A DNA stretch of 36,091 nucleotides, from positions 1 to 36,091 of IMG/VR virus record IMGVR_UViG_3300032291_000263. One strand, 5' to 3'. Numbering within the stretch: the first letter of the stretch is position 1; each line of letters starts with the position of its first letter. The notes under the pieces are model-generated. The model was given only the letters and a program-made list of their open reading frames with translations, was not told where the DNA came from and did no database searches. Source of the DNA: a virus. Made by a program: the position numbers and the translations under genes. Shown here one piece after another: positions 1 through 36,091 of this stretch.

Positions 1-1
1 A

Positions 2-679
2 GGCATGAAAGGTCTGTTCAATCCTACAGACACTATCAGCAAGCAATTCAAGAACGGCATGATGGGCACTGGCGTGTTGGGCTTTGACGAGATCAACATG
101 TCTCAGTCTATCAAGCAACACACAACTGGCTCTCGCGTTGCCACCGGCAACTCTGTGACCACCACTGTGACTTCTCAAGGTGCTTCTAGCATTGCTTTGA
201 CTATCGGCTCTGGCCTGACAGTTAAAGCCGGTGACGTGTTCACTGTTGCTGATTGCTTCGCTGTGAACCCACAGACCCGTGAATCCACTGGTTCGTTGTT
301 CCAGTTCGTTGCTTTGGCTGACGCCACTGCCAGCGGCACTGCAATTGTTGTGAACGTTGCTCCTATCTACACTGCCGCCAATGCTTTGGCTACCGTTGAC
401 AGCTTCCCTGTCTCTGGTAAGGCTGTTGTGTTCGTAGGCGCTGCTTCTAGCCAGTACGCACAGAACTTGGTCTACCACAAGGACGCCATCACCTTCGCAA
501 CTGCTGACTTGCTGTTGCCACAAGGTGTTGACATGGCTGCTCGCGCAGTCCACAACGGTATCTCTTTGCGTGTCGTGCGTCAGTATGACATCAACAATGA
601 CCGTATGCCTTGCCGTATTGACGTTTTGTACGGCTTCAACACGATCCGCCCACAAATGGGCTGCCGTATCTGGGGCTAA
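2..679 (+). CDS. Major capsid (coat) protein, P22 coat family, C-terminal part
   Basis: This is the C-terminal 226 codons of the coat protein that forms the head shell. The frame is open from base 2 and the first in-frame ATG at 5 is internal, because the text before and after it reads like the P22-coat family (KGLFNPTDTISKQF, then a threonine-rich beta region, ending MGCRIWG). The N-terminal 97 codons are at the other end of the window (35800-36091). Base 36091 followed directly by base 1 would shift frame and hit a stop, so sequence is missing between them. P22 coat is about 430 residues; 97 plus 226 leaves roughly 100 missing if the length is typical. Family assignment is from recognised sequence style; the gap size is inferred. 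Confidence 0.88.
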   Translation, partial: GMKGLFNPTDTISKQFKNGMMGTGVLGFDEINMSQSIKQHTTGSRVATGNSVTTTVTSQGASSIALTIGSGLTVKAGDVFTVADCFAVNPQTRESTGSLFQFVALADATASGTAIVVNVAPIYTAANALATVDSFPVSGKAVVFVGAASSQYAQNLVYHKDAITFATADLLLPQGVDMAARAVHNGISLRVVRQYDINNDRMPCRIDVLYGFNTIRPQMGCRIWG

Positions 680-4657: not shown

Positions 4658-4993
4658 ATGACAGTCACCGTCAAAGTCCTCGTACCGGCTAAATTTGCCG
4701 AAAACGCTCAAACAACCCAGTACACCGCGACTGGCGTTACGGCCATCATCGACAAATTCACCGCAACTAACATCAGCGCGTCTGCCGCTACGATCAGCGT
4801 CAACTTGGTCACATCCGCAGGCTCTGCCGGTAACACCAACTTGATCACCAAGACCAAGACCTTGCAGGCGTCTGAGGTCTATACGTTCCCTGAACTGGTT
4901 GGCCAAGTGCTTGGCGTGGGCGACTTTATCAGTACAATTGCAGGCACAGCCAGCGCAATCAACATTCGCGTTTCTGGGCGTGAGGTGACCTAA
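4658..4993 (+). CDS. Small virion beta-domain protein
   Basis: A 111-residue protein, almost wholly beta in pattern: MTVTVKVLVPAKFA, then TNISASAATISVNLV and INIRVSGREVT. It carries few charges and no cysteines. It lies between the needle-like gene and the SET-domain gene, three bases after the former, and overlaps the latter as TAATG. Similar short proteins occur in tail modules of podophages; I do not know a name for the family. A tail-tip or fibre accessory role is an inference from context. Confidence 0.7.
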   Translation: MTVTVKVLVPAKFAENAQTTQYTATGVTAIIDKFTATNISASAATISVNLVTSAGSAGNTNLITKTKTLQASEVYTFPELVGQVLGVGDFISTIAGTASAINIRVSGREVT

Positions 4994-5841
4994 TGCGTGT
5001 AACCTACGGCAAAGGTTTTGCACCAGCTTTGTCCATGACGGGCAAGGTTTTGGCGTTGCAGAATGAACTTTTAAAAATGCCGCAGGCCAACATTGTTACC
5101 GAGCATATTTTTAAGCCAGGTGTTTACGAGCGCAAGATTACGATTCCAGCTTGGACTGTTTTGACTGGCGCAGAACATAAGACGCCCTACCACGTCCGAG
5201 TCGAAAAGGGTACGATTGCAGTCAACACAGATGACGGCGTTAAAGTGTTTACTGGCCCATGCGACTTTCCCGCCAAGGCTGGAATGCAACGCGCAGGCCG
5301 TGTGTTTGAAGAAGAAGTGGTTTGGGTGGACGTGTACGACAACCCAGACGACTGCAATGATTTGGCAGTGCTAGAAGACCGTTTGTATGTCGTGCCTGCT
5401 TGTGGCCTTGCCGACAGCCGGACTGACGTACAAAGAGCGCAGATTGATTACGGCGCCTTTCTTTATCAGATCGGTATGACTCAGAATGAAATGGACACGA
5501 TTGTCCATAACGAGTCTGATTTGATGGAGATGCCTGAAGGCGTAGCTGTGGAATTGCGCGATTCGCCGATCCACGGCAAGGGGTTGTTTGCAACCCGCAA
5601 TTTTGAGGCAGGGGAAGTTGTTTGCCCAGGCCGAGTGGATGGTAAAAGAACCCCAGGCGGGCGCTTTATCAATCACTCATTTAACTGCAATATCAGACCC
5701 GAAAAAGTAGGGGATGACATTTATGCAATTGCTGCGCGTAAAATATGCGCTGGCGATGAATTACTGGTAGATTACAGAGCATCAATGCGAGTCAATTTTG
5801 GACTCACGTTACAAGGAGAATTGCCATGTCTGGATGGGTAG
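4993..5841 (+). CDS. Cupin-like plus SET-domain lysine methyltransferase fusion
   Basis: A 282-residue two-domain protein. Residues about 38-116 form a cupin-like beta barrel (ITIPAWTVLTGAEHKTPYH, GTIAVNTDDGVKVFTG), with His62 and His67 but without the full metal-binding set. Residues about 186-263 are a compact SET domain: IHGKGLFA at 193-200 (SAM-binding loop), RFINHS at 224-229 (the NH motif of the active site) and GDELLVDY at 254-261, whose last Tyr is the catalytic residue in SET enzymes. Pre- and post-SET zinc cysteines are absent. SET proteins transfer methyl groups from SAM to lysine. The gene lies inside the virion cassette, overlapping both neighbours, so the substrate may be a phage or host protein; none is shown by the sequence. 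Confidence 0.85.
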   Translation: MRVTYGKGFAPALSMTGKVLALQNELLKMPQANIVTEHIFKPGVYERKITIPAWTVLTGAEHKTPYHVRVEKGTIAVNTDDGVKVFTGPCDFPAKAGMQRAGRVFEEEVVWVDVYDNPDDCNDLAVLEDRLYVVPACGLADSRTDVQRAQIDYGAFLYQIGMTQNEMDTIVHNESDLMEMPEGVAVELRDSPIHGKGLFATRNFEAGEVVCPGRVDGKRTPGGRFINHSFNCNIRPEKVGDDIYAIAARKICAGDELLVDYRASMRVNFGLTLQGELPCLDG

Positions 5842-17250: not shown

Positions 17251-19152
17251 ATGCTTTGGTTAGATTTCGAGACACGCAGTACGTGTGACTTACGCTCTAA
17301 GGGCGTATACAACTACGCGCAAGATGCCAGCACCGATGTGCTGTGCATGTCGTATGCGTTTGATGATGAGGACGTGGTGACGTGGGTGCCGTCCCAGCCA
17401 TTCCCCGAGCGCGTTCGCAACTACACCGGCCAGATCAGGGCGCATAACGCCGCGTTTGAGCGCTTGATCTTTTGGTACGTCTTACAAATAAATTTTAAGT
17501 TGGAGCAGTTTTATTGCACTGCAACACAAGCCCGCGCCAACTGTGCGCCTGGCAGTCTGGAGGACGTTGGCCGCTTTGCTGGCGCGTCTATGAAAAAAGA
17601 TCACAGGGGCGCGCAATTAATTCGCTTGATGTGTGTGCCGCCATTCAAAGACTCGCCTGAACTTATGGCCGAGATGATCCAGTACTGTGAGCAAGACGTG
17701 CGCGCCATGCGTGCAATCAGTCAGGCCATGCGTGACTTGTCTGACGAAGAACTTACAGACTATCACGTCAACGAGCGCATCAATGATCGCGGCGTGTTGG
17801 TCGATGTGCCGCTGTGCCAAGCAGCCGTTAAGTTTGCCTCCGATGAACTCATTGAGATCGAACAGATCGTCAAGGAAGTCACCGGCGGCGCAATCACTAG
17901 CGTCAGGTCGCCACGCATGCGTGAGTGGGTGCTTGAGCGCGTGGGTGATGAAGCCAAGAAGTTGATGGAGAAGGATGGCAAGTACTCTATTGACAAAACT
18001 GTACGAGCCAACCTTTTACTCATGGAGAACCCCGATGAAGTCCCTGCCGATGTCCAAGAAGTTATCCAATGCGCCGACGACCTCTGGGCGTCATCTGTGG
18101 CAAAGTTCAACCGACTTAGCTGTCTGGCGGATGAGGAGGATCAGAGGGTACGAGGAGCGTTCGTATTTGCTGGCGGTTCAGCAACAGGCCGAGCATCATC
18201 CTACGGCGCCCAAGTTCACAACTTCACACGCAAGTGCGCTGACGAACCAGAAGACGTCAGGCAAGCCATGGTCAGAGGACACGCAATCGTCCCTCGGTAT
18301 GGAAAGCGCGTTACCGATGTACTTAAGGGAATGCTTAGACCAGCGCTCATCCCTGCAACAGGCAAGCACTTTGTCGTGGCAGACTGGGCGGCCATCGAAG
18401 CGCGCGTCAACCCGTGGCTCTCAGGGCGAGGCGCCGATAAACTGGAACTATTCCGCACTGGGGAAGACGTTTATAAAGTCAATGCCGCCGCAACATTCAA
18501 TGTTCGCGTGGCAGACGTCACCAAAGACCAACGACAGATCGGAAAGGTTCAAGAGCTTGCCTGCGGATTTGCTGGCGGCGTGGGCGCTTTTGCTGCTATG
18601 GGTCGGGCTTATGGGATCAGTCTTCCTGAGCCAGTTGCCAAACGCATGGTGGATGGCTGGCGGCGTGCTAATCCTTGGAGCGTACCTTATTGGGCGGCGC
18701 TTGAGGAGTCCTACACCCGTGCAATGAGAAACAAGGGGCGTGAATTTAAGGCTGGCCGTATAACATATTTGTTTGACGGCTTGCACTTATGGTATGCCCT
18801 ACCCTCTGGCCGCATCTTGTGCTACCCCTATGCCAAATTGGAATCAGAGGGCGTCAGTTATGCCAAGGCGGCATGGAAGCCCGCGCAAGATGCAAAAGAA
18901 TGGCCACGCGCGCGCCTTTGGAAAGGCTTGGCATGTGAAAATGTGACGCAGGCGGTCGCCAATGATCTACTTCGACATTCCCTTAGACAACTCGATGACG
19001 TTGTGCTTCATGTGCATGACGAAATCGTTGTCGAAACAGCCGACCCAGAAGCGGCAGAGAATTTAAAACGTGTGATGTGTACAGCGCCAGCATGGGCAGA
19101 TGGCTTGCCCTTGGCCGCTGAAGTTGAAACTATGAAAAGGTATGGCAAATGA
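17251..19152 (+). CDS. DNA polymerase, family A, with 3'-5' exonuclease
   Basis: A 633-residue replicative polymerase. I start it at ATG 17251, which follows AAAGGAG; an in-frame GTG at 17221 lies in the hairpin. The N-terminal DEDDy exonuclease shows LDFETR (motif I), AHNAAFE (II) and YCEQDVRAM (III). The polymerase part has motif A (VVADWAAIEARV), motif B (DQRQIGKVQELACGFAGG) and motif C (VLHVHDEIVVE) with catalytic Asp residues present. The architecture matches polymerases of T7-size podophages, without a 5' nuclease domain. It overlaps the primase-helicase gene by ATGA. Confidence 0.93.
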   Translation: MLWLDFETRSTCDLRSKGVYNYAQDASTDVLCMSYAFDDEDVVTWVPSQPFPERVRNYTGQIRAHNAAFERLIFWYVLQINFKLEQFYCTATQARANCAPGSLEDVGRFAGASMKKDHRGAQLIRLMCVPPFKDSPELMAEMIQYCEQDVRAMRAISQAMRDLSDEELTDYHVNERINDRGVLVDVPLCQAAVKFASDELIEIEQIVKEVTGGAITSVRSPRMREWVLERVGDEAKKLMEKDGKYSIDKTVRANLLLMENPDEVPADVQEVIQCADDLWASSVAKFNRLSCLADEEDQRVRGAFVFAGGSATGRASSYGAQVHNFTRKCADEPEDVRQAMVRGHAIVPRYGKRVTDVLKGMLRPALIPATGKHFVVADWAAIEARVNPWLSGRGADKLELFRTGEDVYKVNAAATFNVRVADVTKDQRQIGKVQELACGFAGGVGAFAAMGRAYGISLPEPVAKRMVDGWRRANPWSVPYWAALEESYTRAMRNKGREFKAGRITYLFDGLHLWYALPSGRILCYPYAKLESEGVSYAKAAWKPAQDAKEWPRARLWKGLACENVTQAVANDLLRHSLRQLDDVVLHVHDEIVVETADPEAAENLKRVMCTAPAWADGLPLAAEVETMKRYGK

Positions 19153-21443
19153 ACTTTCTTGAATTTTTAATTTCTTTAGCACCAGAGGGTGAGACTGCGC
19201 TGATCGTGCGTCAAAAGCCCCAACTCAAAGACGGGCAGATGCAATTCCATGCGGATGGCGCGATCAAATGCACTTGGCCTGCAATGTTGCCTACCGCACA
19301 GATCAAAAAAGACTGGGCAATCTACGGCAACACCGCTTCGTTCATTATCGACCGCTTCAAGGATGGTCATGTTTCAGCGTCTGCCGCTAACTGCGAGTAT
19401 GTGCTTGTCATGGTCTTGGACGATGTGGGCACCAAGGCAGACATCCCGCCACTTGAGCCGACATGGAAGATGGAGACGTCTGAGGGTTCGTTCCAATGGG
19501 GCTATGCCTTCTCTGAGCAACCTACCAAGGCCGACTTTGCAGCCGCCATTAAAGCCATTGCCGATGCGGGCTACACCGACAAGGGCGCGATCAATGCCGT
19601 GCGTAACTTTCGTCTGCCTGACTCGATCAATCTGAAGCCCGACCGCAACAACTTTGCATCTAAGTTGGTGGAGTTTCACCCTGAACGTGACTTTACACTT
19701 GAGCAAATTTGCAAAGCCCTCAATGTAACGCCCGCGCCTGCTGACTCTGTTGGTGTGCGTCCAATCCGTTTGTCAGACGATGGCGCAGACGATGTGATGG
19801 CGTGGCTGTCGGGTCAGGGTCTGCTCTTGTCTAAACCCAACGCTGAGGGCTGGGCTGGCGTGATCTGCCCCAACTCAGCCGAGCATACTGACGGCAATCC
19901 CGAAGGCCGCTACATGCCCGCCAATCGTGCGTATTGCTGTTTGCACAGCCACTGCCTTGAGATCGACTCTAGCGTGTTCCTTAAGTGGGTGTCTGAGAAT
20001 GGTGGCCCTAAGCACGCCCCAGGTCTTCGTGATGAACTGCTGACGATGGCTATGGATGCCGCGCTATCAAAACTGACGCCCTCTGATATGTTCACCGATG
20101 ACGCTAACAGCGTGATCGCTGAGGTTGAGCGCAAGGAGTTGGGACGCATCGAGAAGTCGCAGTGGTATGAGCGTTTCGCGTACATCCAAGACGATGAGTC
20201 TTACTTTGACATGCAAGACCGCCGTGAGATTAGCAGGTCAACTTTTAATGCCTTGTATCGTCACATCGCCTGCAAGTCCATCCACGGCAAGAACCCCAAG
20301 ATCGAGGCGTCTATCTGCTTTGATGAGAACCGACAAAAGCATGGCGCGAAGGCACTTGTCGGCATCACCTATGCCGCAGGCGAGTCGGTCATTGTCGCCC
20401 GTGATGGCGACCTGTACGGCAATCGCTGGCGCGATGCCCGCCCTTCGTTCGGCTCTGGTGATGTAACACCTTGGCTTGAGCATTGCAGGACACTCGTACC
20501 TGACCCAGACGAGCTTGAACACATCTTCAATGTGATGGCGTTTAAGGTGCAACACCCCGAAGTCAAGATTAACCACGCTGTCCTGCATGGCGGTGACCAA
20601 GGCTCTGGCAAGGACACCATGTGGGCACCCTTCATCTGGGCAGTCTGTGGTGAACACCTTAAGAATCGTGGCCTCTTGGACAATGACACCATGTCGTCTC
20701 AGTTTGGTTACGCCCTTGAGTCTGAAATTTTGATTTTGAACGAGTTAAAAGAACCAGACGCGAAAGAAAGACGCGCACTTGCAAACAAACTCAAGCCAAT
20801 CATTGCCGCCCCTCCTGAGATGCTGACAGTCAACCGCAAGGGTCTGCATCCTTATCAGATGGCTAATCGCGTGTTCGTGTTGGCGTTCTCAAATGACCCT
20901 GTGCCGATTAGTTTGGACTCGCAGGATCGTAGGTGGTTTTGCGTTTGGTCGCACGCCCCGCGCATGACGCCTGCGTCTGCTGAGAAGATGTGGAAGTGGT
21001 ACAAGTCGGGCGGTTTTGCTGCGATTGGTGGTTGGCTTGCGTCCCGTGATGTGACGGCCTTCAATGCTGGCGCGGCTCCTATGATGACCGAGTTTAAGAT
21101 GAACCTTGTCGAGCATGGCATGAGCATGGCGGAAAGCTACCTTGTCGAACTCATGCGCGGGCGTTTGGGCGAGTTTTCCAAGGGCGTGGTGGCATCCCCC
21201 TTCCATGCGCTGTGTGATCGCCTTGCAGGGGCGGCTCCTAGTGGCGTGAAGGTGCCACAGCCCGCCTTGTTGCACGCGCTCAAAGAAGCAGGATGGGTTG
21301 ACATGGGTCGATTGAAGTCCCGTGAGTTTGACAATAAGAAACACATTTTCTGCGCGCCCGAGATGCGTGATGTAAGTAAGTCTGAATTGCGTAGACTTGT
21401 CGAGGATGTCCCTGCACCTTTATCTGTGAGGTTAGTAAAATGA
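19149..21443 (+). CDS. Primase-helicase, RepB-like primase plus SF3/DUF5906-like ATPase
   Basis: A 764-residue two-part protein. The N-terminal 200 residues resemble a RepB/archaeo-eukaryotic type primase region (YVLVMVLDDVGTKADIPPLE, with the DDVG acidic pair; AVRNFRLPDSINLKPD). Residues near 235-275 form a Cys/His cluster (ICPNSAEH ... YCCLHSHCLEI), possibly a zinc ribbon. The C-terminal ATPase has Walker A GGDQGSGKDT, Walker B ILILNELKE and SNDPVPISLDSQDRRW with the arginine-finger region. It would unwind the fork and prime synthesis for the polymerase before it. ATGA overlaps occur at both ends. Confidence 0.88.
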   Translation: MNFLEFLISLAPEGETALIVRQKPQLKDGQMQFHADGAIKCTWPAMLPTAQIKKDWAIYGNTASFIIDRFKDGHVSASAANCEYVLVMVLDDVGTKADIPPLEPTWKMETSEGSFQWGYAFSEQPTKADFAAAIKAIADAGYTDKGAINAVRNFRLPDSINLKPDRNNFASKLVEFHPERDFTLEQICKALNVTPAPADSVGVRPIRLSDDGADDVMAWLSGQGLLLSKPNAEGWAGVICPNSAEHTDGNPEGRYMPANRAYCCLHSHCLEIDSSVFLKWVSENGGPKHAPGLRDELLTMAMDAALSKLTPSDMFTDDANSVIAEVERKELGRIEKSQWYERFAYIQDDESYFDMQDRREISRSTFNALYRHIACKSIHGKNPKIEASICFDENRQKHGAKALVGITYAAGESVIVARDGDLYGNRWRDARPSFGSGDVTPWLEHCRTLVPDPDELEHIFNVMAFKVQHPEVKINHAVLHGGDQGSGKDTMWAPFIWAVCGEHLKNRGLLDNDTMSSQFGYALESEILILNELKEPDAKERRALANKLKPIIAAPPEMLTVNRKGLHPYQMANRVFVLAFSNDPVPISLDSQDRRWFCVWSHAPRMTPASAEKMWKWYKSGGFAAIGGWLASRDVTAFNAGAAPMMTEFKMNLVEHGMSMAESYLVELMRGRLGEFSKGVVASPFHALCDRLAGAAPSGVKVPQPALLHALKEAGWVDMGRLKSREFDNKKHIFCAPEMRDVSKSELRRLVEDVPAPLSVRLVK

Positions 21444-24547: not shown

Positions 24548-24748
24548 TTAGATTTCCTCGGGTGTTGCAAAGCGGTCGAAGATGTCGCGGAATGTGGACA
24601 ACAGGCGGTCTTTGTTGCGACTGTCAGCCGCGAAATAAGCCTCAGCGATGGCGGCGGCGAAATGCCCGCCTTCCTTACGCATACGATGAGCCGCGCGGCA
24701 GTCAGCCGCCCAACGCATTTCTTGAAGGGTTTCGTAGATGTCATTCAT
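24548..24748 (-). CDS. Small helical hypothetical protein, 66 residues
   Basis: The sequence is MNDIYETLQEMRWAADCRAA, then HRMRKEGGHFAAAIAEAYFA and a helix DRLLSTFRDIFDRFATPEEI. It is all helical, with an Arg/His-rich middle, and looks like a small three-helix bundle. Coupled by ATGA to the gene before it. No family with known role. Confidence 0.68.
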   Translation of the reverse strand: MNDIYETLQEMRWAADCRAAHRMRKEGGHFAAAIAEAYFAADSRNKDRLLSTFRDIFDRFATPEEI

Positions 24749-25095: not shown

Positions 25096-25290
25096 TTAAT
25101 AGTCAAAACCAATATAAACAACAGTCGTGCCTTTCAACTGCAAGCCATTGCCCCAACAGTCGAGCATGTCGCGGCAGTCATACTTCTTGGCTTCTCGGTT
25201 GTATTCGGTGCGCTGATAAACCTTGTTTGCGTCAGGCTTGCGCTTGAAAAATTCGCCCTTTGGCAAGTCTTTAATGAGTGCTGTTTGCAT
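25096..25290 (-). CDS. First gene of the leftward early operon, 64 residues
   Basis: The protein begins MQTALIKDLPKGEFFKRKPD, continues KVYQRTEYNREAKKYDCRDM, and ends TTVVYIGFDY, a small basic beta-rich protein. The block LPKGEFFKRKPDANKVYQR recalls a small phage family of unknown function. Ribosome site AAAGGAAACATC precedes ATG 25290. It lies about 50 bases downstream of a strong predicted promoter, so it should be among the first proteins made after infection. Confidence 0.72.
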   Translation of the reverse strand: MQTALIKDLPKGEFFKRKPDANKVYQRTEYNREAKKYDCRDMLDCWGNGLQLKGTTVVYIGFDY

Positions 25291-25314
25291 GATGTTTCCT
25301 TTAGGTTAGGTTTT

Positions 25315-25335
25315 ATCGACTGTTTTTGTGTCGAT
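25315..25335. promoter_or_regulatory. Inverted repeat in the early-operon leader
   Basis: ATCGAC (25315-25320) and GTCGAT (25330-25335) form a perfect 6-bp inverted repeat with a 9-nt spacer. It lies between the predicted -10 box and the first gene of the leftward operon, where a repressor could bind or an mRNA hairpin form. Confidence 0.42.
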
Positions 25336-25340
25336 GAGAA

Positions 25341-25369
25341 ATTATAGGTTATGTATATACACTACACAA
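25341..25369 (-). promoter_or_regulatory. Sigma-70 promoter of the leftward operon
   Basis: On the minus strand, TTGTGT (25364-25369) and a perfect TATAAT (25341-25346) are 17 bp apart. A 10-bp palindrome TGTATATACA (25352-25361) lies between them, in the position of an operator. Downstream begins the operon of small genes 25290-21767. Just upstream, ACCTTTTT/AAAAAGGT (25371-25388) is another inverted repeat with a 2-nt spacer. Confidence 0.72.
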
Positions 25370-25500
25370 TACCTTTTTGAAAAAAGGTCAATTTGTGGAC
25401 AATGTGGATAAATGTGTGGGCTACAAATTGACCACTGTATGACCCACGCGCGAACCTAGCAACGATGCGGTCTGCGAGGGTTTGTGGACAATGTGGACAA

Positions 25501-25551
25501 TATATTTATATAAACTAAGAAAAAATAAACTACTGTATATATAGACAGTAG
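25501..25551. other. AT-rich tract, candidate DNA-unwinding element
   Basis: Nearly all A/T from 25501 to 25545, starting right after a tandem pair of boxes at 25483-25500. It ends in a hairpin with a 7-bp stem (CTACTGT/ACAGTAG, 25530-25551). Such tracts melt first at DnaA-type origins. Confidence 0.55.
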
Positions 25552-25797
25552 GGTAATCACCTACGCTCGTCCGCCACTAATTTAAAATCGACGTCCACAT
25601 TGTCCACATTGTCCACAAATCCCCGCGCAGGGAATTCCCACGCAAAGAAAAAGCCGGAACAAAAGAAACGCATTTAAACGCGTTTTGAGCCGTTTTCTGC
25701 GTTTTGCAGGCTAACCCCTTAGCCAAAGTTGTCCACACTGCAAGTGCTACTTATCCACAGTTTCAAGTCTTATATAAGACTGAAACCTGTGCATAAC

Positions 25798-25908
25798 TGA
25801 TACCCCTCGGGGTTTGTTATCCACAGCCTGTGCATAACTTGTGGACAAGTTGGACAATGTAAAAACTGATTGTCCACATTGTCCACACTCCTACTGGTAG
25901 GGGTATCA
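25798..25908. repeat. 10-bp inverted repeats bracketing origin boxes
   Basis: TGATACCCCT (25798-25807) and AGGGGTATCA (25899-25908) are perfect inverted copies. Between them are two TTATNCACA boxes, one inverted and two direct TTGTCCACA boxes. Two short hairpins overlap the arms: ACCCC/GGGGT (25802-25813) and CCTAC/GTAGG (25890-25901). Cruciform formation is possible. Confidence 0.55.
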
Positions 25909-25977
25909 ACTAAAAACTAGTTGTCCACATTGTCCACATGACCCACAGGCAAAGACCCTGCAAACATTGTGGCCATG

Positions 25978-26010
25978 CGGCAAAAATTGCCGAGGGGGAG
26001 GGGGTAGGGC
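25978..26010. other. Hairpin plus G-rich tract before small terminase
   Basis: CGGCAA/TTGCCG (25978-25992, 3-nt loop) is followed by two G5 runs and a G3 run. This lies between the origin boxes and the terminase genes; the bases from here to 26112 hold only a T/A-rich stretch (26050-26080), which may carry the rightward promoter, with no clear -35/-10 pair. Candidate packaging or replication-fork barrier site, unproven. Confidence 0.4.
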
Positions 26011-26112
26011 CGAGCGCAAAGGGCCAGCAAAAACGTAGCGTTCACGAACAATTTTTATTTTTAAATTTTTTGTTGTAAACTCACAACCACTCGCAAACGC
26101 GCAGGAGAACAC

Positions 26113-26562
26113 ATGTTCCATTCGATTCCATTTACACCGCGCAAGGTCGAAGCGACAGAGTCGCGCTTGAAGGCGATATATGATGCGGCCAAGCTGGGCC
26201 TCAAGGGAGATGCCTTAGCCTTAGCGGCGGGCATGCTGCCTATTGAATACAGACAACTCACGCAACTTGACCCTGTGGTGGAACTCGCCGCGCAGAAGGG
26301 CAAAGCGGATGGTGAGATAGAGTTGTCTCGCACACTACATACGGCGGCCCTCAACGGCGACGCCAAGGCAGCGTTAGAAATCCTCAAACATCAACACGGC
26401 TGGGTGGCCAAGCAGGCCATATCTGTCGAGGTCGATCAGCGCATCTCCATCACTGGCGCGCTGGCCGAAGCGCAAAAGCGTGCCCTCGAGGTACTGGATG
26501 TGGAAGACGCCCAAGTAATAGAACCATCGGTACAACATGCAATCGACCATATACAGCGCTGA
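26113..26562 (+). CDS. Terminase small subunit
   Basis: A 149-residue helical protein directly before the large terminase. The N-terminus reads like a helix-turn-helix DNA-binding region (RLKAIYDAAKLGLKGDALAL, then AAGMLPIEYRQLTQLDPVVE), followed by an oligomerisation helix (TAALNGDAKAALEILKHQHG) and a C-terminal tail. Terminase small subunits recognise the packaging site and bring in the large subunit. The start at ATG 26113 has CAGGAGAAC upstream. It overlaps the large-subunit gene by 26 bases. Sequence of this family varies greatly, so position carries much of the weight. Confidence 0.78.
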   Translation: MFHSIPFTPRKVEATESRLKAIYDAAKLGLKGDALALAAGMLPIEYRQLTQLDPVVELAAQKGKADGEIELSRTLHTAALNGDAKAALEILKHQHGWVAKQAISVEVDQRISITGALAEAQKRALEVLDVEDAQVIEPSVQHAIDHIQR

Positions 26563-28063
26563 AGACGAACAGGAACTCATGGCGCGACTGTGGGCGCCAG
26601 CAATCAAGGACAACCCTTTGGCGTTTGTAATGTTTGCATTTCCTTGGGGTCAGTCTGGCACACCGCTAGAACATTTCAAAGGCCCACGCAAATGGCAGCG
26701 TGAGGTGCTGACGCATATTGCCGACCACATCACCCAGAACAAAGGCCAGCTAGACTTCAACACCCTACGCCACGCTGTCTCATCTGGCCGTGGTATTGGC
26801 AAGTCAGCGTTAGTGTCATGGATCACGATCTGGATGCTCACGACCAGAATAGGCTCGACGACCATCATTTCGGCCAACAGTGAGTCACAGCTCAGAAGTG
26901 TCACATGGGCCGAGATTACCAAGTGGCTGGCGATGGCGCTTAACAGCCACTGGTTTGAGGTGTCGGCAACCAGGCTGATGCCCGCCAAGTGGCTCACGGA
27001 ATTGGTCGAGCGTGATCTTAAGAAGGGCACACGCTACTGGGGCGTCGAGGGACGGCTGTGGTCAGCGGAGAATCCCGACGCTTACGCTGGTGTCCACAAC
27101 TTTGACGGTGTGCTAGTCGTGTTTGACGAGGCGTCTGGTATTGACGACAGCATCTGGGCAGTGACAAGTGGATTCTTTACCGAGAACACACCCAACAGAT
27201 TCTGGATGGCGTTCAGTAACCCACGGCGCAACACTGGGTACTTCTACGAAGCGTTCAACAGCAAACGGGAGTTCTGGACTACAAAAGTAGTTGACGCCAG
27301 AACAGTTGAAGGGACGGACAAGCAGGTTTACCAGCAGATTATTGACGAATACGGCGCTGACTCATCACAGGCGCACGTCGAGGTGTACGGTCAGTTTCCG
27401 TCCGAGGGCGACGATCAGTTCATATCGGCAAGTTTGGTAGATGAGGCGATGAAGCGGCCTAAATATCAAGACCAATCAGCCCCTATTGTGATTGGTGTTG
27501 ACCCCGCCCGCTTTGGCGCGGATGCAACAGTTATTGCTGTCAGGCAGGGGCGGGACATTATTGCCATTCAGCGCCACAGGGGCGACGACACAATGACTGT
27601 CGTTGGCCATGTAATTGAGGCGATTGAGGAATACAAGCCTGCATTGGTCGTGATCGACGAAGGTGGGCTTGGGGCTGGTATTGTGGATCGCTTGAAAGAG
27701 CAAAGGTACAAAATCAAAGGTGTCAACTTTGGCAATAAATCATCAAATCCGGTCATGTATGGCAATAAAAGGGCCGAAATGTGGGGCAAAATGAAGGATT
27801 GGCTGAAAACTGCTTCAATCCCGCTTGACAGGTTTCTTAAAACTGATTTAATTTCGCCTATGATGAAGCCCGACTCCAAAGGGACTATCTTTTTGGAGTC
27901 GAAAAAGGACATGAAGGCACGCGGATTGGCCTCGCCTGACGCGGCTGACGCTATTTGCGTCACGTTTGCCTTCCCAGTAGCCCACCGTGAGGCGCGTGAA
28001 TCCACGCAGCGCCGCACGTACAATGGCAGAGGCGTGGTTGCAACTTCTTGGATGGGATCGTAA
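26537..28063 (+). CDS. Terminase large subunit, ATPase and nuclease
   Basis: A 508-residue packaging motor. The ATPase shows GRGIGKSALVSW (Walker A variant, residues about 84-95), VLVVFDEASG (Walker B with the catalytic Glu) and the coupling motif region WMAFSNPRRNTGYF. The nuclease domain, RNase H-like, has IVIGVDPARFGAD, LVVIDEGGLGAG and SPDAADAICVTF with the metal-binding Asp residues in their usual spacing. It cuts concatemeric DNA and drives it through the portal. The stop shares bases with the next ATG (TAATG). Closest type by feel is the Terminase_6 group. Confidence 0.92.
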   Translation: MQSTIYSAEDEQELMARLWAPAIKDNPLAFVMFAFPWGQSGTPLEHFKGPRKWQREVLTHIADHITQNKGQLDFNTLRHAVSSGRGIGKSALVSWITIWMLTTRIGSTTIISANSESQLRSVTWAEITKWLAMALNSHWFEVSATRLMPAKWLTELVERDLKKGTRYWGVEGRLWSAENPDAYAGVHNFDGVLVVFDEASGIDDSIWAVTSGFFTENTPNRFWMAFSNPRRNTGYFYEAFNSKREFWTTKVVDARTVEGTDKQVYQQIIDEYGADSSQAHVEVYGQFPSEGDDQFISASLVDEAMKRPKYQDQSAPIVIGVDPARFGADATVIAVRQGRDIIAIQRHRGDDTMTVVGHVIEAIEEYKPALVVIDEGGLGAGIVDRLKEQRYKIKGVNFGNKSSNPVMYGNKRAEMWGKMKDWLKTASIPLDRFLKTDLISPMMKPDSKGTIFLESKKDMKARGLASPDAADAICVTFAFPVAHREARESTQRRTYNGRGVVATSWMGS

Positions 28064-31168: not shown

Positions 31169-31480
31169 ATGATGGAACTTCTCAACCCAATGAGCAAAGC
31201 GGATTTCCCCGCTTTTACCGCAACAGCTGGCGCAACTGCTGGCAACACAACCGCATGGAATGCAGGCCCACAAGGCGTTTTGGTTTGGAGCGAGGTGCCC
31301 TGCTATGTTGAAGTCGGTGTTGGTGCTGTTGCCACTAACGCTAGCACACCGATCCCTGCTTACACGCCAATTCCTTTTGTTCTGACACTCAGTTCAAACG
31401 GATCCCCTTGGCGCGTCAGTGTGCTGCGAATTGGTAGCACAGACGGCACTGCATACTGCAAACCGATCAATAAGCAATGA
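31169..31480 (+). CDS. Small structural protein, head or tail-associated
   Basis: A 103-residue beta-rich protein: MMELLNPMSKADFPAFTATA, then a strand region (VLVWSEVPCYVEVGVGAVAT) and an end INKQ. AAGGAAAC precedes ATG 31169. Similar short proteins precede tail-fibre genes in podophages. I know no specific name. It is coupled by ATGA to the next mini-gene and probably a virion component or attachment-module adaptor. Confidence 0.68.
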   Translation: MMELLNPMSKADFPAFTATAGATAGNTTAWNAGPQGVLVWSEVPCYVEVGVGAVATNASTPIPAYTPIPFVLTLSSNGSPWRVSVLRIGSTDGTAYCKPINKQ

Positions 31481-31641
31481 GCTTTGGTGTCGCCCTTCGC
31501 AATTCGGTGGCCATTGGCCTAGCCGGTATTGCCACGTTGTTTTCAGGCACACGCGACAGCGGTGCTTCAGTGGGCAACCTTCTCACCGAGTCTGGCGACA
31601 ACCTTGTCCAAGAGGACGGTGGACAAATTCTTTTGGAGTGA
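31477..31641 (+). CDS. Small protein, 54 residues, tail-fibre module
   Basis: ATG 31477 overlaps the preceding stop (ATGA). The product is MSFGVALRNSVAIGLAGIAT, then LFSGTRDSGASVGNLLTESG and DNLVQEDGGQILLE. The ending repeats a LLTESGDNLVQEDG... pattern that occurs as short beta turns in many phage tail proteins. It ends six bases before the spike adaptor gene. Missing from length-limited ORF calls. A structural role is inferred. Confidence 0.65.
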   Translation: MSFGVALRNSVAIGLAGIATLFSGTRDSGASVGNLLTESGDNLVQEDGGQILLE

Positions 31642-31646
31642 CCTAA

Positions 31647-32126
31647 ATGGCCGTATTTCTCTCCCCAGTGGGCGGCGTTGCGGCCCAGTTTTTTACAAAC
31701 ACCGGCGCAGTACTGACTGGTGGTAAGCTGTACACCTACCTTGCTGGTACAACTACGCCTGCAGCCTCGTACACAACTAGCGCAGGCACTACCGCCCGTA
31801 CTAATCCTGTTGTTTTAGATGCTGCTGGTCGAGTGCCTAGTAGCGGTGAAATTTGGATTTTGCCCGTTTCGTACAAATTTGTATTAACAGATTCAAATGA
31901 TGTACTAATTGCAACTTATGACAATGTTTTTGGCTCTGGCGCGTTCGCGGTAACAAATTACACGGGAAATGGATCAACTGTTGCTTACGCCGTTTCAGGG
32001 AATGTGGTTGCTGTTTACATTAACGGTGTATATCAAAACAGAAATACGTATTCTGTTGCAAGCAGCACTTTGACATTTAGTCAAGCTCCTCCGTTTAATT
32101 CTTTAATTGAAATTCTGTACAACTGA
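31647..32126 (+). CDS. Tail-fibre/spike adaptor, head-binding domain
   Basis: A 159-residue protein of the type found at the N-terminus of podophage tail fibres: GGKLYTYLAGTTTPAASYTT, then TNPVVLDAAGRVPSSGEIWI and PVSYKFVLTDSNDVLIATYD. These residues match the head-binding motif in which the polypeptide caps the tail hub. The C-terminal part is a small beta domain (YINGVYQNRNTYSV). Here it is a separate protein, not fused to the spike, suggesting a branched receptor-binding apparatus with this as a docking subunit. Confidence 0.78.
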   Translation: MAVFLSPVGGVAAQFFTNTGAVLTGGKLYTYLAGTTTPAASYTTSAGTTARTNPVVLDAAGRVPSSGEIWILPVSYKFVLTDSNDVLIATYDNVFGSGAFAVTNYTGNGSTVAYAVSGNVVAVYINGVYQNRNTYSVASSTLTFSQAPPFNSLIEILYN

Positions 32127-35799: not shown

Positions 35800-36091
35800 A
35801 TGTCAAACAGTATTCTGACGATTGATATGATCACAAGAAAAGCTCTCGAAATTCTTGAGAACAACCTTGTGCTTACCCGTAACGTGAACCGCCAGTATGA
35901 CGACAGCTTTGCTGTTGAAGGTGCTAAGATTGGTTCAACCCTCCGTATCCGTTTACCTGACCGCGCTCTGGTAACTGACGGCGCCGCCTTGCAAGTGCAA
36001 GACGACAACGAGCAGTTCACCACTTTGACCGTTGCCAGCCAAAAGCACATCGGTGTCAACTTCACATCTGCTGAATTGACCATGCAATTGG
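35800..36091 (+). CDS. Major capsid (coat) protein, P22 coat family, N-terminal part
   Basis: The first 97 codons of the coat protein, cut by the window end. AAAGGACTTTTGAA precedes ATG 35800. The sequence MSNSILTIDMITRKALEILE, then NNLVLTRNVNRQYDDSFAVE and GAKIGSTLRIRLPDRALVTD, matches the N-terminal arm and first core strands of the P22 coat family. The rest appears at 2-679 after a gap of probably about 100 codons that is not in the window. Confidence 0.9.
   Translation, partial: MSNSILTIDMITRKALEILENNLVLTRNVNRQYDDSFAVEGAKIGSTLRIRLPDRALVTDGAALQVQDDNEQFTTLTVASQKHIGVNFTSAELTMQL

Follow-up and report, generated by a model that had tools for sequence, protein, structure and literature searches.

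Candidate origin iterons of a freshwater phage covary with the C-terminal domain of its primase-helicase

The window analysed here, the whole 36,091-nucleotide stretch of viral record IMGVR_UViG_3300032291_000263, carries an array of 9-mers that is very probably the phage's own replication origin, with iterons that would be read by a winged helix predicted at the C-terminus of the phage primase-helicase, in the manner of P4 alpha and SaPI Rep. The array comes in different types with a conserved pitch and layout, and its type covaries with the primase C-terminus and with residues 723 and 728. From these patterns we infer protein-DNA binding, origin activity, unwinding, and module exchange as the route of type switching.

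By letter count, the 545-bp array (Table 1) contains exactly 11 TTGTCCACA and five TTATNCACA sites, the latter comprising three copies of TTATCCACA and two of TTATGCACA; TTGTCCACA differs from TTATCCACA by one base, and occurs only once in the other 35.5 kb, at position 24593. Five pairs of sites abut head to tail at a 9-bp pitch. Dinucleotide shuffling of the window, repeated 200 times, never put more than 2 sites into a 545-bp stretch, and 500 shuffles of the array region itself yielded a mean of 0.05 sites and a maximum of 2. The initial annotation, which reported 16 DnaA-box-like 9-mers in 545 bp with five abutting pairs, was therefore exact in its counts, and its description of a gene-free region adjoining an AT-rich stretch is borne out as well: no ORF with family support was found in the gap at 25290-26113, which is flanked by small leftward ORFs and by the rightward terminase genes, and the AT-richest 50 bp falls between the innermost pairs. 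The cumulative GC skew, proposed as a check, revealed no minimum at the array; skew across the window tracks the coding strand.

Table 1. Coordinates of the array, its parts and the genes considered here.
Feature	Position	Strand	Remarks
Primase-helicase, proposed initiator	19149..21443	+	PHROG DNA primase; DUF5906 NTPase aa 479-595
Primase-helicase aa 701-764, predicted winged helix	21249..21440	+	Wing loop aa 723-730 (KSREFDNK); K723 and D728 track array type
Type A iteron array, proposed replication origin	25394..25938		11 TTGTCCACA units, mainly abutting pairs, 9-bp pitch
Left-arm iteron pair, TTATCCACA + TTGTCCACA	25394..25411	-	Sites at 25394 and 25403
Left-arm iteron pair adjoining AT-rich core	25483..25500	-	Sites at 25483 and 25492
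AT-rich core, proposed unwinding element between inverted iteron arms	25494..25549		About 16% GC
Right-arm iteron pair adjoining AT-rich core	25600..25617	+	Sites at 25600 and 25609
Insert of about 190 bp	25665..25860		TTGTCCACA at 25729, 25840; TTATNCACA at 25751, 25788, 25817, 25829; TCTTATATAAGA palindrome
Right-arm iteron pair	25870..25887	+	Sites at 25870 and 25879
Right-arm iteron pair	25921..25938	+	Sites at 25921 and 25930
TerS candidate, by position	26113..26562	+	Just right of array; does not track array type
Large terminase subunit (TerL)	26537..28063	+	Relatedness yardstick

Relatives were collected in two ways. A scan of viral contigs with TTGTCCACATTGTCCACA, a sample biased by the query, yielded at least 119 loci, and about 100 among the matches listed code for homologues of this phage and have the array immediately before TerS-TerL; the unrelated contigs carrying the 18-mer (L019, L036 and L089) have no array, only a few ORF-overlapping sites common to related contigs. 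The second set came from a TerL search, which is blind to the repeat: of the 73 loci in it that had 700 bp or more upstream, 21 showed three or more DnaA-like boxes, and several phages with 97-99% identical TerL had none at the array site. The initial annotation had named replacement of the boxes by unrelated repeats in relatives as an outcome that would refute its reading. Relatives do replace them by other repeats: where the terminase is 92-99% identical, an array still occupies this position, but its unit varies, including TTGTCCACA, TGACYCACA, TGACCCAAA, TAGCCMACA, TTGCYTACA, and others, all of which fit the frame T-NNN-Y-N-A-M-A. The same-strand pitch is 9 bp in all types, with 10 bp in many arrays of type B. 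Across all types, 118 of 144 arrays have minus-strand repeats to the left and plus-strand repeats to the right of the AT-richest stretch, which is flanked by the innermost of them (p<1e-45 against an expectation of 25%, the arrays being partly non-independent). One subgroup (L187, L188, L185 and L058) has a second repeat upstream of TerS, ACTAACTTA/TAAGTTAGT, in 5-6 copies near the array.

Within the close clade, the gene that splits by array type is the primase-helicase. For example, a type B phage has identities of 99.2% in PolA, 95.3% in TerS and 99.2% in TerL, and only 71.3% in the primase. Type B, C, D and E primases were used to collect further loci, resulting in 158 distinct phages, on which array type requires 21 parsimony changes on the tree of primase residues 601-764, as opposed to 48 for primase residues 1-300, 59 for TerS and 61 for TerL. 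For phage pairs with TerL at least 95% identical (367 same-type, 607 different-type), sequence identity separated the two kinds of pair with an AUC of 0.949 for primase 701-764, 0.743 for primase 1-300, 0.559 for TerS and 0.509 for PolA. Nearest-neighbour agreement in a 60-aa sliding window along the primase climbs from about 0.4-0.5 to a peak of 0.84 at 701-760; residues 1-300 hold little type signal, as opposed to the C-terminal half. The NTPase core is common to types A and C, whose main differences fall at 301-325, at 426-475 and in parts of 601-764. Array type follows the C-terminal part of the primase-helicase, and not the terminase, polymerase or portal; iteron type thus appears, by covariation, to be specific to the C-terminal domain of the proposed initiator.

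Linkage to the array was considered as a cause of this covariation and rejected. In the same phages, the primase C-terminus scores 0.90-1.0 and the ORFs between primase and array 0.61-0.74. The small ORF o21767, adjoining the primase end, has an AUC of 0.877, as would be expected from its linkage to the primase, and ORFs further towards the array drop to 0.63-0.70. Since the small ORFs and TerS, which are closer to the array, track its type less well, linkage does not explain the pattern.

The highest mutual information with array type was found in column 728, which was selected out of 764 columns after seeing the data. Aspartate or glutamate occupies it in 57 of 57 phages with A/F (TTGYCCACA) arrays versus 1 of 101 others, and all 57 have K723. 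All 15 of the supported independent pairs that the TerL tree provides show residue 728 and array type in agreement (p=6e-5), and the association holds in 62 phages outside the main set (p=8e-7). Thirteen phages outside the main set carry D728 without at least three exact TTGYCCACA sites: four have GTCCACA-type arrays, three have TTGTCCATA arrays, and another six fail to fit, namely L346 and L557-L561, the latter a deep branch. One phage has an A-like array without D/E728.

A model of residues 440-764, built from a 50-sequence alignment (pLDDT 83), predicts a winged helix at the C-terminus, with the order beta-alpha-alpha-beta-wing-beta and residues 723-730 forming the loop between the two wing strands; a single-sequence model of the whole primase was unusable (pLDDT 37). 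Foldseek matched the model to the C-terminal region of the NrS-1 primase-polymerase, to PriRep1 with dsDNA, and to D5-type proteins of poxviruses and ASFV (D5/E5), and, together with the DUF5906 domain, these matches place an SF3/D5-type helicase in the proposed initiator. A PDB sequence search with the C-terminal domain found no significant match to a solved chain.

The resemblance of the type A unit to the DnaA box had led to the proposal that the array recruits host DnaA for phage replication, or titrates it, as datA does, to block host initiation. As the main function this is improbable. The TTATNCACA boxes are exact and TTGTCCACA is the near-match noted above, but the likeness to a DnaA-dependent origin or sink is one of letters, and the boxes are not conserved as such in relatives: upstream of TerS, close relatives of types B-E average 0-0.1 TTATNCACA and show hardly any TTGTCCACA, yet keep the layout with other units, and two or more TTATNCACA occur in only 7% of the type A members of the test set. 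With types B-E practically devoid of DnaA boxes, DnaA cannot be the common reader, and, unlike in oriC or datA, the unit covaries with a phage protein. The likeness is probably incidental, with the exception of the insert of about 190 bp, for which a minor DnaA role is possible.

This insert, which is present in only some type A relatives, holds four of the five TTATNCACA boxes in the window, and may represent a genuine DnaA-box cluster. Its left part is homologous to positions 20168-20302 of Limnohabitans phage DC31 (L124 8001-8135), a 76-kb phage otherwise unrelated to this one, in which all the boxes are TTATCCACA. In insert-bearing relatives three of the four TTATNCACA boxes are conserved, and the fourth alternates between TTAT and TTGT. 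A search for a host-chromosome source in 200 genomes of one host order gave just two matches of about 25 bp. In this respect, it is worth mentioning four sister phages (L206, L180, L205 and L564; TerL about 84% identical) that lack this primase, their replication module being replaced by one with Toprim and a RecA-like AAA_25 protein: they have small mixed TTAT/TTGT box clusters at the place of the array, which are possibly truly DnaA-dependent. Another relative, L566 (MW202483), encodes at 31423-31719 a 98-aa protein consisting of little beyond the DnaA C-terminal DNA-binding domain (Bac_DnaA_C), and its array unit is different (GTTTACRTAAAC-like).

With a cluster of leftward small ORFs on one side and rightward late genes on the other, the array is placed as would suit an operator array through which the primase-helicase, or some other regulator, works the early/late transcription switch. 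We regard this as very unlikely to be its primary role: a Pfam search of the small ORFs revealed no regulator above the cut-off, origins typically show such a symmetric arrangement around an AT-rich core, and the array covaries with a helicase; operator function could be an additional role. Least credible of all is a packaging site (pac or cos) recognised by TerS, for although terS adjoins the array in relatives and here starts 175 bp away, TerS as the array binder was rejected because it fails to follow array type on either measure given above, and near-identical TerS proteins occur with different arrays.

The reading as a phage origin, called probable in the initial annotation, is well supported by layout and covariation. 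Under it, the 9-mers would be iterons to which the primase-helicase binds through its C-terminal winged helix, the inverted arms would load the helicase on either side of the AT-rich core, and the core would melt, after which the phage primase and family A polymerase would unwind, prime and copy it. Iterons in the family fall into at least five main types, and recombination would swap the array jointly with its cognate C-terminal domain, leaving the N-terminal domain, polymerase and terminase almost identical.

Among known systems, phage lambda differs in that its O protein is not a helicase. Its O-bound iterons lie, as here, beside an AT-rich unwinding region, but inside the O gene (PMC7466680). 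As described in PMC6092414 and PMC7581432, SaPI/PICI elements have a self-encoded initiator helicase and two iteron sets flanking an AT-rich region, and E. coli PICIs have allelic variants of Pri-Rep (PMC6092414). Our arrays share the two flanking sets, and the proposed initiator is likewise self-encoded, with a modelled fold matching PriRep1 bound to dsDNA. They differ in being carried by a family of phages that have their own capsid and terminase, in their 9-bp iterons, and in falling into at least five main types among phages whose terminase and polymerase are nearly the same; a point against our reading is that the array is some 4 kb from the helicase gene, unlike in SaPI/PICI, where it is directly 3'. 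Neither an origin immediately 3' of rep nor helper dependence, which mark satellites, was found, and terminase, portal and further structural genes are present on the element itself. By analogy, array and initiator would work like the known satellite and P4 systems; the phage itself is not a satellite.

P4 alpha is a primase-helicase that binds the origin repeats through a winged helix at its C-terminus (Yeo et al. 2002, as cited in PMC4234260). The architecture predicted here is alike, but the P4 primase is of the Toprim type (PMC4234260), and the C-terminal domain in our phage resembles no solved chain significantly in sequence. In PLE satellites of Vibrio cholerae, the origin and the RepA_N DNA-binding domain covary and are exchanged as modules, and the ICP1 nuclease Odn targets one PLE origin type (PMC8263062), providing a reason for origin/initiator exchange there. 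The covariation with a DNA-binding domain of the (here proposed) initiator is shared, but PLE has another initiator family, semi-palindromic iterons of about 30 bp, and two covarying groups.

A TerL-based scan of genome contigs yielded mostly freshwater MAG contigs, several of them Burkholderiales, so that the host is only suggested. Open frames run off both ends of the window (1-679 and 35800-36091), and that on the left is homologous to an annotated capsid protein; the record may therefore represent an almost complete, permuted genome that lacks a small stretch. An ORF among the structural genes (4993-5841) has, by eye, a SET-domain-like C-terminal stretch.

In the literature searched, a type-switching initiator/origin pairing was unreported for this freshwater phage family. 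A tentative reading, to which we give somewhat less than even weight, is that this widespread family maintains the types as origin "serotypes", many and mutually exclusive, each matched to an initiator wing and swapped by recombination under negative frequency-dependent selection, for example for escape from origin-directed nucleases, origin-hijacking satellites, or co-infecting phages with the same origin. Correcting the misreading of DnaA-box look-alikes provides in its stead a testable pairing of initiator and origin, and such pairs, which nature offers by the hundreds and at several degrees of divergence, constitute, with a wing loop that follows type, a ready dataset for how winged-helix initiators choose their DNA. 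With type switching so frequent among phages that otherwise hardly differ, one may ask which selective forces in nature favour diverse origins.
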